A DNA stretch of 64,000 nt from Oryzomonas sagensis. Its GTDB lineage: Bacteria > Desulfobacterota > Desulfuromonadia > Geobacterales > Pseudopelobacteraceae. Both the position numbers and the translations under genes were made by a program. Below, piece after piece: positions 37,199-47,488 of this stretch (its first letter is position 1; each line of letters starts with the position of its first letter). The notes below the pieces were generated by a model. The model ran no database searches and was not told where the DNA came from. It was given only the letters and a program-made list of their open reading frames with translations. The DNA lies in contig NZ_VZRA01000001.1 of assembly GCF_008802355.1 (NCBI RefSeq), positions 690,980 through 754,979 on the forward strand. Reading direction: 5' to 3'.

Positions 37199-38320
37199 CT
37201 AGAGTCTCATGGGCATGATCACCGCAAGAAAGCTATCCGAACCTTCCGGCACAATGATCGATGGGGAGAGTTCATCCCGGAATTTCATCTCCACGCTTTC
37301 GGTTTCGGCCACGGCCAGCACGTCCAGGAGATAGCGGGCATTGAACCTGACGGATATGGGCTCGCCGTCGTACGCTACGTCGATATCCTCCATGGCGTCG
37401 CCCAGTTCCGGGTTGCTCGAGGATATCTTCACGCCGCCGGAAGATATCTCCAGCATGATCCCCTTGAATTTTTCGCTGGAGAGTATGGCCATCCTGCGGA
37501 CGGAGTGGGTGAAATTTTCCTTGTCGACCGTGACGATGCGATCATTGGCCGCGGGGATAACCCGGTTGTAGTCCGGGAACTCGCCGTCGACCAGACGCAT
37601 GACCATGTAGGAATCGCCCCGCTTGATCACCGCACTGTTGTCCATGAAGCCGAACATCAGGGTGCCGCCATCCTCGTCGGTGATCTTTTTCATCTCGTAC
37701 ACGCCTTTTTTGGGGAGGATGACCCCCTTCAGGAGTTCTGGGCCGGCCGTTCCCTTGAGGGCTCCGGTGGCGATGGAGAGGCGGTGGCCATCGGTGGCGA
37801 CCATTTTGAGGGCGTTTTCGCCGTTTTCGTTAACCTCGACCTTGGCGAATATCCCGTTCAGGTTGTATTTTGTCTCGTCGGTGCAGATGGCGTAGGATGT
37901 CTTTTCGATCATGCCTTTCAGCAGGGCGCTCTCTATCTCGAAAAGATTTTCTTCCTTGATTTCGGGAAAATAGGGAAATTCGTCGGGAGAAAGTCCCACG
38001 ATGTTGAATTTCACCTTGCCGCATTTTATCTCGACCCAGTCGTTGTCCTTTGTTGAGAAGACGATGGCCTGGTTTGGGAGTTCCTTGACGATCTCGTACA
38101 ACTTTTTAGCCCCGACCGTGATCCTTCCGGGGGCCGTGACTTCGGCGGGGTAGGTGCCCTTCATTCCTACCTCGAGGTCGGTGGCGGTTACATGCAGTGA
38201 GGAGCCGGTTGCCTCCAGAAGGACATTCGACAGAATCGGCATGGACGTTCGTTTTTCGACGATACCCTGAATCTTTTGCAGCGACTTGAGGAACAGTTCC
38301 TTATCGATTGTAAATTCCAT
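37199..38320 (-). CDS. dnaN: DNA polymerase III beta subunit (sliding clamp)
   Basis: A 373-residue ring clamp with three topologically similar domains. The start MEFTIDKELFLKSLQKIQGI and C-terminus SLAVIMPMRL-like ending (here FLAVIMPMRL) are typical and form part of the partner-binding pocket. AAGGAGTGACAG precedes the ATG. Its partners in this window may include the nuclease-helicase fusion at 42.8 kb, whose two QxxLF motifs resemble clamp-binding peptides, and PolB. DnaA boxes lie between dnaN and dnaA. Confidence 0.97.
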   Translation of the reverse strand: MEFTIDKELFLKSLQKIQGIVEKRTSMPILSNVLLEATGSSLHVTATDLEVGMKGTYPAEVTAPGRITVGAKKLYEIVKELPNQAIVFSTKDNDWVEIKCGKVKFNIVGLSPDEFPYFPEIKEENLFEIESALLKGMIEKTSYAICTDETKYNLNGIFAKVEVNENGENALKMVATDGHRLSIATGALKGTAGPELLKGVILPKKGVYEMKKITDEDGGTLMFGFMDNSAVIKRGDSYMVMRLVDGEFPDYNRVIPAANDRIVTVDKENFTHSVRRMAILSSEKFKGIMLEISSGGVKISSSNPELGDAMEDIDVAYDGEPISVRFNARYLLDVLAVAETESVEMKFRDELSPSIIVPEGSDSFLAVIMPMRL

Positions 38321-41001: not shown

Positions 41002-42597
41002 ATGGAAAAGCGCGCATTTCTGGCAGTCATTCTTTCGATAGCGGTTTTCTATGTTTTTACCACGGTCTTCGGCCCGGGAAAAACACAAATCCCGCCTAAA
41101 GCCACCCCCGCAGCAAGCTCTGCCGCGCCAACGCCGGCCCCGGCTGCTGCGACGTCGGCACAGCCGGCCCCGGCAGGAGTCCCCGCACCCACCCCGGCCG
41201 TTGTCAAGGACGTGACCGTGGAGACCGGCCTCTACACGGCGGTTTTCTCTTCGCGGGGCGGAAGTCTCAAGAGCCTTACCCTCAAGAAGTACCGCGAGCA
41301 GAATACCCCCGCCGCCAGTTCGGTTGTGCTCGGGACTCACGCCGATCCCTCCCTTCTCAACTTTTCCACCAGGGGGGCCGGGTTCAACCTCCCGGACGGC
41401 ACCGTATTCGTGCCGGATACCGGCGCCATTACCCTGACCGGCGGCGAGAGCCGGCAACTGACGTTCAATTACGTATCCGGTCAGGGGTTCACCGTGCGTA
41501 AGGTCTTCACCTTTGCAGGGGACTCCTACGGCATCAAGTTGGATACCCAGGTGTTCAACAACTCCGCTGCGCCCCTGGTCGGGACCATCCAGCAGGTGAT
41601 GACCTATCCGGCGGAACATAAGGTTAAGGACAACCGCCTCGATACGGCCGGCTCCTACCTCTACTCGGACAACAGCCTCAAGGCCGACAAGGCCAAGGAT
41701 GTGGCCGGTGCCTCGAAGAAGTATGACAAGAGCATCCTTTGGGCGGGCTTTTCCGACAAGTACTTTCTGAGTGCCCTCCTTGCCGACAAGGGGAGCATCG
41801 CTTCCGTCGAATTGAAAAAGAACGCCGCCGGCTTCCTGGAATCCATCGTCTCGGCCCCGCAGTTCACGATCAATCCCGGACAGGCCGCCACGGTGACCCA
41901 GCGGCTGTTCGTCGGCCCCAAGGATATCGACATCCTCAAGGCCCAAGGCAATTCGCTGGAACAGTCCCTCGATCTGGGGTGGTTTACGGTGATTGCCAAG
42001 CCGCTCCTGTACACCCTTAAATTCTTCTACCGCTATGTCGGCAACTACGGCATCGCCATCATTATCATCACCATCATTCTCAAGGCGCTGTTCTTCCCCC
42101 TGACCCACAAGAGCTACAAATCCATGAAGGGGATGCAGAAGATCCAGCCGGAGATGAACAAGATCCGCGAGAAGTACAAGAACGACCGCGACGCCATGAA
42201 CAAGGCGGTCATGGAACTGTACCGCGACCACAAGGTCAACCCGTTGGGGGGGTGCCTGCCCATGGTCGTCCAGATTCCGGTGTTTTTCGCCCTCTACAAG
42301 GCGCTCATGTTCTCCATCGAGCTGCGCCATGCGCCGTTCTTCTTCTGGATTACCGACCTGTCCGACAAGGACCCCTACTATGTCACTCCCGTCATCATGG
42401 GGGTCACCATGTTCGTGCAGCAGAAGATGACCCCCTCCCAGATGGACCCGGTCCAGCAAAAGATGATGCTGGCCCTGCCGGTGGTGTTCACCTTCATGTT
42501 CTTGAGCTTCCCCTCCGGCCTGGTCCTGTACTGGCTGGTGAACAATATCCTGACCATCGGCCAGCAGATGTACATCAACAAGCTGGTCAAGGATTGA
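41002..42597 (+). CDS. yidC: Membrane protein insertase YidC
   Basis: A 531-residue insertase of Gram-negative type. The N-terminal helix ([20 protein letters not shown]) is followed by an Ala/Pro-rich linker and a periplasmic beta-sandwich (residues about 70-330). The conserved five-helix core contains [20 protein letters not shown] and [20 protein letters not shown]. The end [20 protein letters not shown] is the family signature. It works with SecYEG and alone. The usual jag (khpB) gene does not follow; an intrinsic terminator and a repeat come next. Confidence 0.97.
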
Positions 42598-42687: not shown

Positions 42688-42804
42688 CCACAAAGTCACA
42701 AAGGGCACAAAGAAATTCAGATACTTATGAAGATAAAGAGTCGAACCAATCAGGTGAAAGACTTTGATAAGATAGCCGACTGATTTTCCTTTGTGTCTTT
42801 GTGG
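42688..42804. repeat. Interspersed repeat family B, copy 2
   Basis: Inverted arms CCACAAAGTCACAAAGG (42688-42704) and CCTTTGTGTCTTTGTGG (42788-42804), with one mismatch; a CACAAAG variant of the family B arm. It fills the gap between the yidC terminator and the nuclease-helicase gene. Confidence 0.75.
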
Positions 42805-42841
42805 TTCAAATGTTTTTTCTTGGTTAAAGGATACGACCTTC

Positions 42842-45800
42842 ATGGATTACATCGCCGACCTGCATATCCATTCCCCCTTTTCGCGGGCAACCAGCCCGCA
42901 GAGCAGCTTGGCCGGCCTGGCCGGTTGGGCGCGGATCAAGGGTATTCAGGTGATCGGCACCGGCGACTTCACCCACCCCGGCTGGTTCCGCCGCCTCAAG
43001 GAGGAGTTGGAGCCGGCCGAACCGGGACTGTTCCGCCTGAAGGACGAGGCCGCCGTCGCTTCGCCGCTGCCGGGGGCGGCCGCCCTTGCCGGCCCGGTGC
43101 GGTTCCTCCTTTCGGCGGAGATCAGCAGCATCTACAAGCGCCACGGCGTGGTGCGCAAGGTCCACAATCTGCTCTACGTGCCGGATTTCGTCTCTGCCGA
43201 GCGGCTGAACGCCAAGCTGGCCGGCATCGGCAACATCGAGTCCGACGGGCGCCCCATCCTGGGGCTGGACAGCCGCAACCTGCTGGAGATTCTGTTGGAG
43301 CAGGCGCCTGAGGGGTTCCTGGTGCCGGCTCACATCTGGACGCCCTGGTTCTCCCTGTTCGGCTCGAAATCCGGCTTCGACGCCATCGAGGAGTGTTTCG
43401 ACGACCTGACGCCCCACATCTTTGCCCTGGAGACCGGGCTCTCCTCCGACCCGGACATGAACCGCCTGATATCGGCTCTGGACCGTTTCGCCCTGATCTC
43501 CAACTCGGACTGCCATTCCCCCTCAAAATTGGGGCGGGAGGCCAACCTCCTGGCCACCGACCTCGATTTTTTCGCCCTGCGGGCCGCCATCAAAGGGAAC
43601 CGGCGGGAGACCTTCCGCGGCACGGTGGAGTTTTTCCCCGAGGAGGGGAAGTACCACGCCGACGGCCACCGGGCCTGCCATGTCTGCCTCGACCCCGTGG
43701 AGAGCCGGCGGCTCGGATTGCGCTGTCCGGTCTGCGCCAGACCCCTGACCATTGGGGTCTACCACCGGGTGATGGAACTGGCCGACCGGGAGGAGCCGCT
43801 CTACCGGGAGGATTCGCCGGAGGTGTTCAGCCTCATCCCCCTGCCCGAGGTGCTGGGGGAGATCATCGGGGCCGGACCGGCCTCCAAGGGGGTCATGGAA
43901 CAGTACCGCCGCACCATCGGGCGGTTCGGGTCGGAATTCAACCTGCTGCTGCACGTCCCTCTGGACGAGATTCGCCAGGCCTCGCCGGTCCTGGGCGAGG
44001 CCGTGGGGCGCATGCGCGCCGGCCGGGTCATCCGCCAGCCCGGTTTCGACGGCGAGTACGGCGTGATCAGGGTCTTCGAAGAGGGGGAGGCGGGACAATT
44101 TGCCGGCCAGGGGAGCCTGTTCGGCGATGGGTCGGCGCCGCGGCGCCGGAAAAAGAAGACCGAGGCCGTGGCGTTGCCGGCTCTCGATGTTGTCGGGGAA
44201 CCCGTGGACGACGCCCCCGGGGCAGCGCCCGGCCCCAACCCGGAGCAGGCGGCGGCCATCGGCTCCACAAGCCGCCATATCCTGGTGGCGGCCGGACCGG
44301 GAACCGGCAAGACCTCCACCCTGATAGCGCGCATCGCGGCGCTGCTGGCGGCGGGGAACGACCCGGCCCGCATGGTGGCCGTCACCTTTACCGCCAAGGC
44401 GGCCGATGAGGTGCGCGAGCGCCTGTTGAAACAGGTCGGGGCGGCGGGTGAAGCGGTCTTCGTGGGGACCTTCCACCGGTTTTGCCTCGACCGGCTCCGC
44501 CGCGAAGCGCCGGCCCTGGCGGTGGTCGGCCCGGAGGACCGGGAGCGCCTGTTCAAACGTCTCTTCCCGGAACAGGGCGCAGCCGAGCGCCAACGCCTTG
44601 GCGAGGCGTTGGCCGATCATTTTGCCCAACCGGACGGCGAGGCCTCCGCGGCCATCCGGCGCTATCTGGACGAACTGGACCGTCTCGGCGCCCTGGACCT
44701 GGATGCCGTTATTCCGGTGTTCACCCGACGGCTGAGCCGTGAGCCCGAACTGCGCCGCCGGGTCTGCGACCCGGTGGCACACCTGTTCGTGGATGAGTTC
44801 CAGGACCTGAACGCAGGCCAGTTCGAGCTGGTGCGCATCCTGGCCGAACAGGCCCGCGTCTTTGCCATCGGCGATCCCGACCAAGCCATCTACGGCTTCC
44901 GGGGGAGCGACCCGGAGTTTTTCTTCCGCTTCGGCACTATGGCCGGTGTCGAGCAGATCTCCCTGACCCGCAACTACCGGTGTCCCGCCCCGGTCATCGC
45001 CGCGGCAACGGCGGTCATCGCCCATAACGGCCGGCGCAGCGGCCTGCCCCTGGTCGCCGCTTCCGGGCGGGGGGGCGGCATCGAACTGCACACCGCGCCG
45101 TCCGGGGCGGCCGAGGCCGAATTCGTCGTGCGCCGCATCGAGGAGTTGCTGGGGGGCATCGAGCACTTTTCCATCAATTCCGGCCGGGGCGGCGACGGCG
45201 GGACGGGACGGGGCTTGAGCTTCGGCGACATCGCCGTGCTCTTCAGGCTCGGGAGGCAGGCCGAGGAGATCTCTGCCGCCCTGGAGCGGCGCGGCATACC
45301 GTTCCAGCAGGTCGGGGTGAGCCCCTTTTACCTTGCTGCGGAGATACGACCGGCCTACTATTGGGTGCAGGCCGCCGCCGGATCGGAGACCATCGCCGAC
45401 TGGCTGCAACTGGCAAGCGCCCTTCCGGGTGTCGGAGCGGCAAGCCTCGGTCGCATGGAGGCGGTACTCCCCCTGGCGGGCGATTTCTTCGCCTCCCTTG
45501 CCCCTCTCGAACTGCCCCGGGCGCTGCGTGACGGCATCGTTGACCTGGAACGGGCCATGAGCCGGTTCCGTGCGGCCGCGACCCGCAGCGGCCTGGCTGC
45601 GGCGTTGCTCGATGCGCTGCCGTTTCTCTCCCTGGACCCGGCCCAGGCCGCCACCGTGCGGTTCCTGGACCTGGCCGGCAGTTTCGGCCATGATCTGCCG
45701 GGCTTCGGCAGCCACCTGCGCCGCTACGCCGAAGCCACCGTCTACGACGAGCGTGCCGAGGCGGTCGCCCTCATGACCCTCCATGCCGCCAAAGGGCTGG

Positions 45801-46090
45801 AGTTCCCGGTGGTCTTCCTGACCGGCGCCGAGGAGGGGCTGCTTCCCTGTACCCTCTGGCGTGACGTGGATACGGAGGAGGAGCGGCGGCTGTTCTACGT
45901 CGGCCTGACCCGCGCCAAGGAGCGGCTGCTTCTGACCGCTTCCGCCACGCGTCCCTGGGTCGGCCCGTCCCCCCGGCAACTCTCCCGGTTCGTCGCCGAG
46001 ATACCGGGGCCGCTGCTGTCGGCCGCGAATGCCGGCCCAATCAGGAAGGTGAAGGGTACGAAAGACCCGGGCCAGATGGACCTGTTTTGA
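42842..46090 (+). CDS. Endonuclease Q-like PHP nuclease fused to a UvrD/PcrA-type SF1 helicase
   Basis: A 1082-residue fusion. Residues 1 to about 400 match the EndoQ/TIGR00375 family: YIADLHIHSPFSRATSP, IGTGDFTHPGWF, FLLSAEISSIYKRHG, ISNSDCHSPS (PHP metal ligands). A CHVC...CPVC zinc site lies near residues 282-303. EndoQ nicks 5' of deaminated bases (U, hypoxanthine, xanthine). A linker with QGSLF (423-427) leads to a complete SF1A helicase: Walker A AAGPGTGKTS (485-491), FVDEFQDLNAGQ (II), GDPDQAIYGFRGS (III), LTRNYRC (IV), MTLHAAKGLEFPVVF (V), EERRLFYVGLTRAKERL (VI). The protein ends QMDLF (1078-1082). Both QxxLF motifs resemble clamp-binding peptides. ATG 42842 follows AAAGGA; the frame to 42791 is repeat-derived. 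Confidence 0.9.
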   Translation: MDYIADLHIHSPFSRATSPQSSLAGLAGWARIKGIQVIGTGDFTHPGWFRRLKEELEPAEPGLFRLKDEAAVASPLPGAAALAGPVRFLLSAEISSIYKRHGVVRKVHNLLYVPDFVSAERLNAKLAGIGNIESDGRPILGLDSRNLLEILLEQAPEGFLVPAHIWTPWFSLFGSKSGFDAIEECFDDLTPHIFALETGLSSDPDMNRLISALDRFALISNSDCHSPSKLGREANLLATDLDFFALRAAIKGNRRETFRGTVEFFPEEGKYHADGHRACHVCLDPVESRRLGLRCPVCARPLTIGVYHRVMELADREEPLYREDSPEVFSLIPLPEVLGEIIGAGPASKGVMEQYRRTIGRFGSEFNLLLHVPLDEIRQASPVLGEAVGRMRAGRVIRQPGFDGEYGVIRVFEEGEAGQFAGQGSLFGDGSAPRRRKKKTEAVALPALDVVGEPVDDAPGAAPGPNPEQAAAIGSTSRHILVAAGPGTGKTSTLIARIAALLAAGNDPARMVAVTFTAKAADEVRERLLKQVGAAGEAVFVGTFHRFCLDRLRREAPALAVVGPEDRERLFKRLFPEQGAAERQRLGEALADHFAQPDGEASAAIRRYLDELDRLGALDLDAVIPVFTRRLSREPELRRRVCDPVAHLFVDEFQDLNAGQFELVRILAEQARVFAIGDPDQAIYGFRGSDPEFFFRFGTMAGVEQISLTRNYRCPAPVIAAATAVIAHNGRRSGLPLVAASGRGGGIELHTAPSGAAEAEFVVRRIEELLGGIEHFSINSGRGGDGGTGRGLSFGDIAVLFRLGRQAEEISAALERRGIPFQQVGVSPFYLAAEIRPAYYWVQAAAGSETIADWLQLASALPGVGAASLGRMEAVLPLAGDFFASLAPLELPRALRDGIVDLERAMSRFRAAATRSGLAAALLDALPFLSLDPAQAATVRFLDLAGSFGHDLPGFGSHLRRYAEATVYDERAEAVALMTLHAAKGLEFPVVFLTGAEEGLLPCTLWRDVDTEEERRLFYVGLTRAKERLLLTASATRPWVGPSPRQLSRFVAEIPGPLLSAANAGPIRKVKGTKDPGQMDLF

Positions 46091-46117: not shown

Positions 46118-47488
46118 ATGTATATTGAAGATACCATCGCAGCCATCAGCACCCCCCAGGGGGAGGGGGGCATCGGCATCGTTCGGGTCAGCGGCAGCCT
46201 GGCGGAGGCCATCGGCCTACGGCTCTTCCGTTTTTGCCGGGGTGTCGCTTTTGCCAGCCATTTTTTGCACTACGGCGCCGTGGTGGCGCCCGGTGGCGAT
46301 GCAGTACTGGACGAAGCCATGGCGGTCCTGATGCGGGCACCCCATTCCTACACCCGCGAGGATGTGCTGGAACTGCACTGCCATGGCGGGATGCTGGTGG
46401 TGGAACGGGTCCTGGCCGCGGTTTTGGCCTGCGGCGTGCGCCTGGCCGAACCGGGTGAGTTCACCCGCCGGGCCTTTGTCAACGGCAGGATCGACCTGGT
46501 GCAGGCCGAGGCGGTCATGGACGTGATCGCCGCCAAAACCGAGGCATCCCTGGCCCTTGCCCAACGCCAGCGGACCGGTGCACTGTCTGACAGGATAGAG
46601 ACCATCCGCCGTGCCCTGACGCGAAGTTTGGCCTTTGTGGAGGCCTCCATCGATTTCCCCGAGGACGACATTGGCGAGACCGACACCGTTGCTCTGCGGT
46701 CCGGTGTCAGCGATGCCTTGGACGTTATCGGCGGTCTGCTGGCCGGTTTCGACGAAGGGCGCATCCTCAGGGAGGGGATTTCCGTGCTGATCGTCGGCAA
46801 GCCGAACGCCGGCAAGTCCAGCCTGCTCAACCGCCTGCTCAAGGAAAACCGCGCCATCGTCACCCATGTCCCCGGCACCACCCGGGATATCATCGAGGAG
46901 ACCGTCAATCTGGGCGGCTTGGCGGTCCGTCTGTTGGACACGGCGGGTATCCGCCACACGGATGATGTGGTGGAGCGGGAGGGGATCAACCGCGCCCTGG
47001 ACAAGATTCCCCTGGCGGACCTGGTGCTGTTCGTCCTCGATTCGGCGCGGCCGTTCAGCGACGAAGACCGGCTGATCCTGGATGCCGTGAAGGGGAAAAC
47101 CACCATAGTGGTTTTGAACAAGAGCGATCTTTCCCCGGTCCTCCAGCTTCCCCCAGCGATGGGAGTGCTGCCCCGCGTCGCCCTGTCCGCCGGCACCGGT
47201 GCGGGCATCGACGAGCTGCGCGAGGTGATCCGCACCACCTTTCTGCACGGATCGGCCCTGGATAGCCGCGAATTCGTGGCCATCTCCCGGGTCCGTCACC
47301 GCGACGCCCTGGTCTCGGCCCGTGCAGCCCTCCACCGGTTTCTCTCCGGTCTGGACGAGGGGCGCGAGTTGGAGACCCTGGCCATCGATCTGCGCGACGC
47401 CCTGTCCGCCGTGGGGCAGGTCACGGGCGAAACCACGACGGACGATGTTCTGGATGTGGTCTTTTCGTCATTCTGCATAGGAAAGTGA
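46118..47488 (+). CDS. mnmE: tRNA uridine-5-carboxymethylaminomethyl(34) synthesis GTPase
   Basis: A 456-residue GTPase that with MnmG modifies U34 of certain tRNAs. The N-terminal formyl-THF-binding domain starts [20 protein letters not shown]. The G domain (about 215-375) has [18 protein letters not shown] and NKSD. The C-terminal CIGK carries the catalytic cysteine. It follows the nuclease-helicase gene and precedes mnmG, with a parS site in between. Confidence 0.97.

Follow-up and report, generated by a model that had tools for sequence, protein, structure and literature searches.

A gene of Oryzomonas sagensis joining an endonuclease Q module to a UvrD-like helicase looks like an undescribed DNA-repair machine

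What might a bacterium do with a protein that carries a nuclease for damaged bases and a DNA helicase in one chain? The question is raised by a gene at 42842..46090 (+) of the window, the 64,000-nucleotide stretch of Oryzomonas sagensis DNA analyzed here (from contig NZ_VZRA01000001.1), whose product joins an endonuclease Q (EndoQ) module to a UvrD-like helicase and carries two motifs of the beta-clamp-binding type. With a probability of roughly 0.68, we read this fusion as a clamp-docked excision-repair enzyme that would nick and unwind DNA at deaminated bases and apurinic/apyrimidinic (AP) sites, a reading that draws on sequence comparison, a structure model and analogy with characterized EndoQ.

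Translation of the gene gives one chain of 1082 amino acids, followed by the stop codon and with no internal stop, as the first-pass annotation of this DNA had described. An upstream TTG start would lengthen the frame to 1099 amino acids; the ATG at 42842 was taken as the start because a Shine-Dalgarno-like AAAGGA (42826..42831, +) lies 10 nt before it and homologous fusions begin there. The chain has three main regions: the EndoQ module with its PHP fold (residues 1–414, 42842..44083, +), assigned from structure matches, conservation and the model; a linker (residues 415–465, 44084..44236, +); and a UvrD-like superfamily 1A (SF1A) helicase (residues 466–1065, 44237..46036, +), assigned from Pfam, structure matches and the model. 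The full-chain model, built on 71 sequences, has a predicted local distance difference test (pLDDT) score of 88 and a predicted template modeling score of 0.80. The pLDDT falls below 50 in residues 425–460, 784–788, and 1066–1076; the first of these segments starts inside the linker motif QGSLF, and the last stops right before the C-terminal motif QMDLF.

Structure searches matched residues 5–414 to the PfuEndoQ structures 5zb8 and 7k30-33 (E ~1e-52), and the predicted structure superposes on PfuEndoQ with a Z-score of 48.0 and a root mean square deviation of 2.5 over 389 aligned residues (Foldseek against 5zb8, TMt 0.89–0.90). The residues D6, H8, H10, D42, E93, H108, H164, E197, D223, and H225 are identical in 71/71 aligned fusions, in which G199 and S201 are also invariant, and a wider set of 132 EndoQ domains shows no change at E93, H108, H164, G199, or S201. 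In PfuEndoQ, according to the portions of the literature drawn on here and below, E76, H84, and H139 coordinate an essential zinc and their substitution by alanine abolishes activity, while H139, G169, and S171 are reported to exclude thymine and adenine (PMC8307549). The first three residues align with E93, H108, and H164 of the fusion, and the latter three with its pocket residues H164, G199, and S201. With the fold matching PfuEndoQ and the metal ligands invariant, the earlier identification of an EndoQ/TIGR00375-like PHP nuclease holds, as does the expectation that a structure model would show an EndoQ fold. The fusion is the sole TIGR00375 match in its genome, with a score (168 bits) below the curated cut-off of this NCBIfam hypothetical equivalog (326.6 bits), and the module is therefore filed as a separate EndoQ subfamily. 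The first-pass annotation had also proposed a zinc site; four predicted ligands are present (H276-C279-C295-C298), with the correction that the first cysteine of PfuEndoQ is a histidine here. Position 276 is His in 82/83 fusions, 40/40 solo EndoQs of the fusion clade and 2/2 split pairs, and Cys in 7/7 classical solos; C282, conserved in just 39/71 fusions, was dropped as a ligand in favor of H276. The fusion thus shares the fold, PHP ligands, pocket residues, and zinc domain of EndoQ (PfuEndoQ, TkoEndoQ, and Bacillus pumilus EndoQ), whereas it is about one third identical, adds a helicase, and has a zinc site of the form HxxC..CxxC rather than CxxC..CxxC.

Residues 466–1063 match PcrA/UvrD/Rep structures and the families PF00580 and PF13361, and the model aligns with Deinococcus radiodurans UvrD at Z 46.5 over 573 residues (Rep, Z 41.1; PcrA, Z 41.0). 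K490, D651, E652, Q654, D655, R687, H981, R1016, and R1024 are identical in 71/71 aligned fusions. The Walker A/B and other SF1 motifs together with the UvrD fold place the module in SF1A, and the earlier description of a complete UvrD/PcrA-type helicase is confirmed in this respect. Scores against the PcrA, UvrD, and Rep equivalog models stay under their cut-offs (283 vs 911, 255 vs 1144, and 241 vs 951 bits, respectively). The module shares the fold and SF1 motif residues of these helicases, whereas it forms a clade of its own and carries an insert after about residue 771, which faces gaps in the PcrA/UvrD alignments as judged by eye. The insert spans residues 771–795 with the low-confidence loop inside it, and G772 is invariant in the 71 fusions. 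Apart from the fusion, the genome encodes two such helicases, one of the PcrA/UvrD type and one further member of the UvrD family.

Both putative clamp motifs, QGSLF where the EndoQ module ends (residues 423–427, 44108..44122, +) and QMDLF at the C-terminus (residues 1078–1082, 46073..46087, +), behind the low-confidence tether 1066–1076, fit the beta-clamp consensus, as had been pointed out from the sequence. That consensus is given as QLxLF, often C-terminal (PMC4549789). We counted the strict pattern Qxx[LMIF][FL] in 97 complete, non-identical fusion frames and compared the counts with shuffled sequences. The last 20 residues contain it in 87/97 fusions (about 5% expected after shuffling), and in 60/97 it stands exactly at the last residue (0.2 expected). 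Eight of the ten C-terminal misses end in QLRLI, one is L160 and one is L009, which has a broken frame. The linker carries the strict motif in 78/97 fusions (about 5% expected), 70 of them at one fixed offset, and 70/97 fusions have both motifs. In the aligned fusions the C-terminal Q1078 is found in 71/71 and the linker Q423 in 56/71. Both places are predicted to offer what is expected of a beta-clamp client, a conserved peptide of the QxxLF type in an accessible segment. The frame of L009 (from G252, of the same genus) aligns over 1–1047 and is then lost, leaving the C-terminal motif outside the main frame, which may be a sequencing error or real.

Such endings are absent from both ordinary helicases of this genome and from the other ordinary helicase rows whose ends were inspected; several ordinary PcrA/UvrD rows (e.g., L255) end instead in what we take to be a Tudor-like domain. 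The strict motif is likewise in none of the seven classical solo EndoQs compared, and 5/40 fusion-clade solos on the tree keep the linker motif. Of about 10 independent pairs, 8.9 show the linker motif going with the helicase and 0.0 the opposite (median p 0.004), an association that is partly mechanical since truncation past EndoQ removes both. Bacterial EndoQ homologues are reported to carry clamp-like motifs C-terminally, and archaeal (Thermococcales) EndoQ is docked to PCNA, which stimulates it, by a peptide that follows the nuclease module, the PCNA-interacting-peptide (PIP) box (PMC4858679). The fusion differs from this archaeal repair system in having a bacterial QxxLF in place of the PIP box, two motifs, a bacterial clamp as the likely partner, and a helicase in cis.

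The gene is not unique, as the fusion recurs across bacterial genomes. At least 584 relatives turned up when 84,980 species genomes were scanned, and the best 80 were kept; since they were ranked against the full fusion, the scan favors fusions. These best 80 comprise 78 one-frame fusions (5 cut by contig ends), one locus with adjacent genes (L117) and one solo EndoQ (L128), so that the proposed domain order is indeed found elsewhere. They fall under about 18 phylum-level labels by our own count from record titles. Among them are named strains of Geobacter, Fodinibius, Actinopolyspora, Micromonospora, Faecalicatena, and Anaerotruncus, alongside many metagenome-assembled genomes (MAGs). In the window's class (277 genomes, counted by hand), 29 genomes have the fusion and 72 an unfused EndoQ, with fused and solo judged from open frames, some MAG contigs cutting the gene, and two genomes with a helicase piece at a contig end (G130 and G196) counted as without EndoQ. 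No helicase gene was seen beside a solo EndoQ among the 88 class loci retrieved. In the phylum of an Anaerotruncus genome (299 genomes), about 46 carry a fusion-clade EndoQ, 33 of them with a frame of at least 900 residues by hand count, and the same phylum also holds a distinct solo EndoQ clade at about 30% identity. One genome, G257, encodes two EndoQs of a single clade, one fused and the other solo (L054 and L053). The fusion family is widespread and apparently old.

Two loci keep the halves as neighboring genes. In L117 they lie 10 nt apart and end in ...KGQGTLF and ...PQMGLF; in L212 EndoQ has QAKLF before a longer tail and the helicase ends in ...RQASLF. We built EndoQ and helicase trees by quick searches without a mixture model, the EndoQ outgroup being on a long branch. 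The fusion clade is set apart from the seven classical, Bacillota-side solos (100*), and when the tree is rooted on these, the earliest branches are five unfused EndoQs from the window's order, followed by split L117 and then by the remainder, in which fusions and solos alternate. The fused or solo state changes 16–17 times on this tree, at least 10 of the changes being forced by starred branches. In the helicase tree, the helicases of fusions and split pairs group together (100*), L117 branching first, and are set off from the ordinary UvrD-family rows; ten ordinary rows, partly from the same genomes as fusions, lie on one side of the branch, and row L259, labeled as ordinary, is the fusion of its genome. 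The two halves are co-inherited, with many subclades recurring in both trees by eye. The early position of L117, the single helicase clade and the recurring subclades favor one old joining of neighboring genes followed by losses of the helicase; the root is uncertain, and the counts alone cannot tell gain from loss.

A clue to the lesion comes from endonuclease V (EndoV), which shares the proposed lesion class (hypoxanthine) and the start from a single nick, and cuts 3' of the lesion, unlike EndoQ (PMC8307549). At a threshold of E <= 1e-40 and with counts transcribed by hand, EndoV is present in 0/29 fusion genomes, 4/101 EndoQ genomes, and 56/176 others of the class (p 6.6e-9), so the two enzymes are largely exclusive there. 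By genus the figures are 4/28 for EndoQ and 35/54 for others (p 1.6e-5), and with eight weak EndoV matches included, five of them in EndoQ genomes, 9/101 and 59/176 (p 2.4e-6). The window genome has one uracil-DNA glycosylase (UDG) and no EndoV match. UDG is found in 271/277 class genomes, the six without it including the fusion genomes G271 (99% complete) and G262. This distribution suggests that EndoQ replaces EndoV in this class, and the EndoV complementarity with the near-universal UDG makes hypoxanthine and xanthine, rather than uracil alone, the more plausible niche. In some members of one family, f3, the gene directly upstream of a fusion (L013/L097, apparently one and the same contig) or of a solo EndoQ (L061 and L071) is UDG-like, and in L049 and L052 such a gene lies about 700–820 bp from EndoQ or the fusion.

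These features can be assembled into a candidate pathway, in which the incision chemistry is carried over from characterized EndoQ, clamp binding is read from the motifs, and the order of steps is our proposal. UvrD and PcrA move 3'->5'. The EndoQ module would take up a flipped-out hypoxanthine, uracil, xanthine, or AP site in its pocket and nick immediately 5' of the lesion, giving a 3'-OH and a 5'-phosphate on the lesion strand, and the fused 3'->5' helicase would load at the nick on the intact strand, move downstream and peel off the lesion strand, starting at the 5' end. Both QxxLF peptides, carried on floppy tethers, would hold the enzyme on the sliding clamp, in parallel with PCNA stimulation of archaeal EndoQ; docking would bring a polymerase to the 3'-OH and favor action on recently replicated DNA, and a 5'-nuclease and ligase would complete repair. 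The nick chemistry is that described for EndoQ, whose discoverers proposed two routes after it, strand displacement by a polymerase, or a second cut by EndoV with removal by a helicase (PMC4357722, Fig. 10). The fusion would merge both routes, with the helicase in cis and EndoV missing.

Several points weigh against this pathway. The published helicase route (PMC4357722) needs EndoV, which the class fusion genomes lack. The EndoQ module is about 32–34% identical to PfuEndoQ and falls below the TIGR00375 cut-off, and 19/97 fusions lack the strict linker motif. EndoQ occurs without the helicase in the 72 class genomes counted above, and these many helicase-less relatives mean that EndoQ can probably act alone. 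The EndoV complementarity was corrected for genus only, and the exclusion is not universal, as EndoV matches, including one weak one, occur in 10/50 genomes outside the class (49 fusion and 1 split), several of the ten belonging to Micromonosporaceae. In the part covered, 59 adjacent same-strand genes and a further look for UDG only, no sign of a repair operon appeared beyond family f3.

The same conserved parts would serve an enzyme working in the opposite order, with the helicase first unwinding DNA at forks, gaps or clamp-marked sites so that EndoQ can inspect the exposed single strand. UvrD-type helicases start at nicks, and a nick in single-stranded DNA at a fork would break the fork. PfuEndoQ is reported to be more active on uracil and hypoxanthine in single-stranded than in double-stranded DNA, but an AP-site analogue was cut best in double-stranded DNA (PMC11354406), and we regard such unwinding before cutting as unlikely. 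It is also conceivable that fusion serves co-expression only, the halves acting separately and only the clamp motifs mattering. The frequent interchange of fused and solo states and the disordered linker of the model agree with this; however, the helicase motif residues are kept in every aligned fusion, the two unfused loci hold their genes adjacent, and the linker motif tracks the helicase, if partly by truncation, which leaves co-expression alone as an improbable explanation.

The neighborhood bears on the remaining possibility, a role in defense. The ORFs flanking the fusion gene (41002..42597, +, and 46118..47488, +) are recognizable as what we take to be yidC and mnmE, as first annotated, and the ORF at 37199..38320 (-) is presumably dnaN, encoding the proposed docking partner, the beta clamp. 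The origin-adjacent position noted at first holds here but only at some class loci, with yidC and/or mnmE beside EndoQ in 10 genomes, a count in which many flanks are just 1.5 kb; in G251, a genome of the same genus, this slot is occupied by a solo EndoQ that retains a remnant of the linker. While the anatomy and functional reading of the first-pass annotation are backed by the comparative evidence and the model, its remark that this slot is often used by jag is unsupported, as no Jag_N (PF14804) match was found in this genome. No partner gene was common across phyla among the 59 adjacent same-strand genes (flanks of L097–L174); the commonest neighbor family was the calcineurin-like phosphoesterases (Metallophos, PF00149), at 6/59 operon-type neighbors of the fusion. 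SOS control was rejected, with GAAC-N4-GTTC in 3/211 upstream regions (0.9 expected) and CTGT-N8-ACAG in 0. Just upstream of the gene, a facing pair of CACAAAGNCACAAAG repeats lies at 42689-42703 (+) and 42789-42803 (-). The repeat has 37 copies in the genome (20 forward and 17 reverse; 0 for a backward-read control), which are mostly facing pairs by eye and form a family resembling repetitive extragenic palindromes (REP) or miniature inverted-repeat transposable elements (MITE).

A phage origin was rejected, with no EndoQ match among 50,697 phage records, as was a plasmid origin, since the 534 plasmid records that matched each cover less than 80% of the query. Gabija GajAB pairs a nuclease with a UvrD-like helicase, and the fusion helicase matches the PADLOC GajB and DRT helicase models; the matches listed are limited to the helicase part, and identity with a defense family was rejected. 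Unlike Gabija, the fusion has an EndoQ nuclease in the same chain plus clamp-like motifs, and no GajA lies beside it, the neighbors being recognized as yidC and mnmE without a profile search. An antiviral nuclease-helicase, formally Gabija-like and directed at phages with uracil- or otherwise modified DNA, in line with a role suggested for bacterial EndoQ (PMC8307549), is very improbable given PADLOC matches that look like general UvrD similarity, the phage and plasmid results, the subclades recurring in both trees, the position between core genes, and motifs like those of host clamp clients.

The clamp-docked repair enzyme thus remains our preferred reading. Earlier accounts portray EndoQ as chiefly archaeal, its bacterial homologues being limited (PMC4357722 and PMC6202378). 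The EndoQ clade described here is distinct, is often joined to a helicase and occurs under about 18 phylum-level labels. None of the titles and abstract openings listed in literature searches mentions an EndoQ-helicase fusion, though it may be described elsewhere, and the protein looks like an undescribed DNA-repair machine. We see even odds that it represents an ancient, bacteria-wide excision pathway for deaminated bases, in which one clamp-riding polypeptide would recognize, nick, and unwind, separate from glycosylase-initiated base excision repair, UvrABC, and MutSL, replacing EndoV in some lineages and repeatedly trimmed to solo EndoQ. As a self-contained enzyme, it would make recognition, incision, unwinding, and clamp docking approachable domain by domain. 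The fusion suggests the course that nick-initiated repair takes after incision, which the EndoQ papers left as models, and it could explain how bacteria without EndoV handle hypoxanthine.

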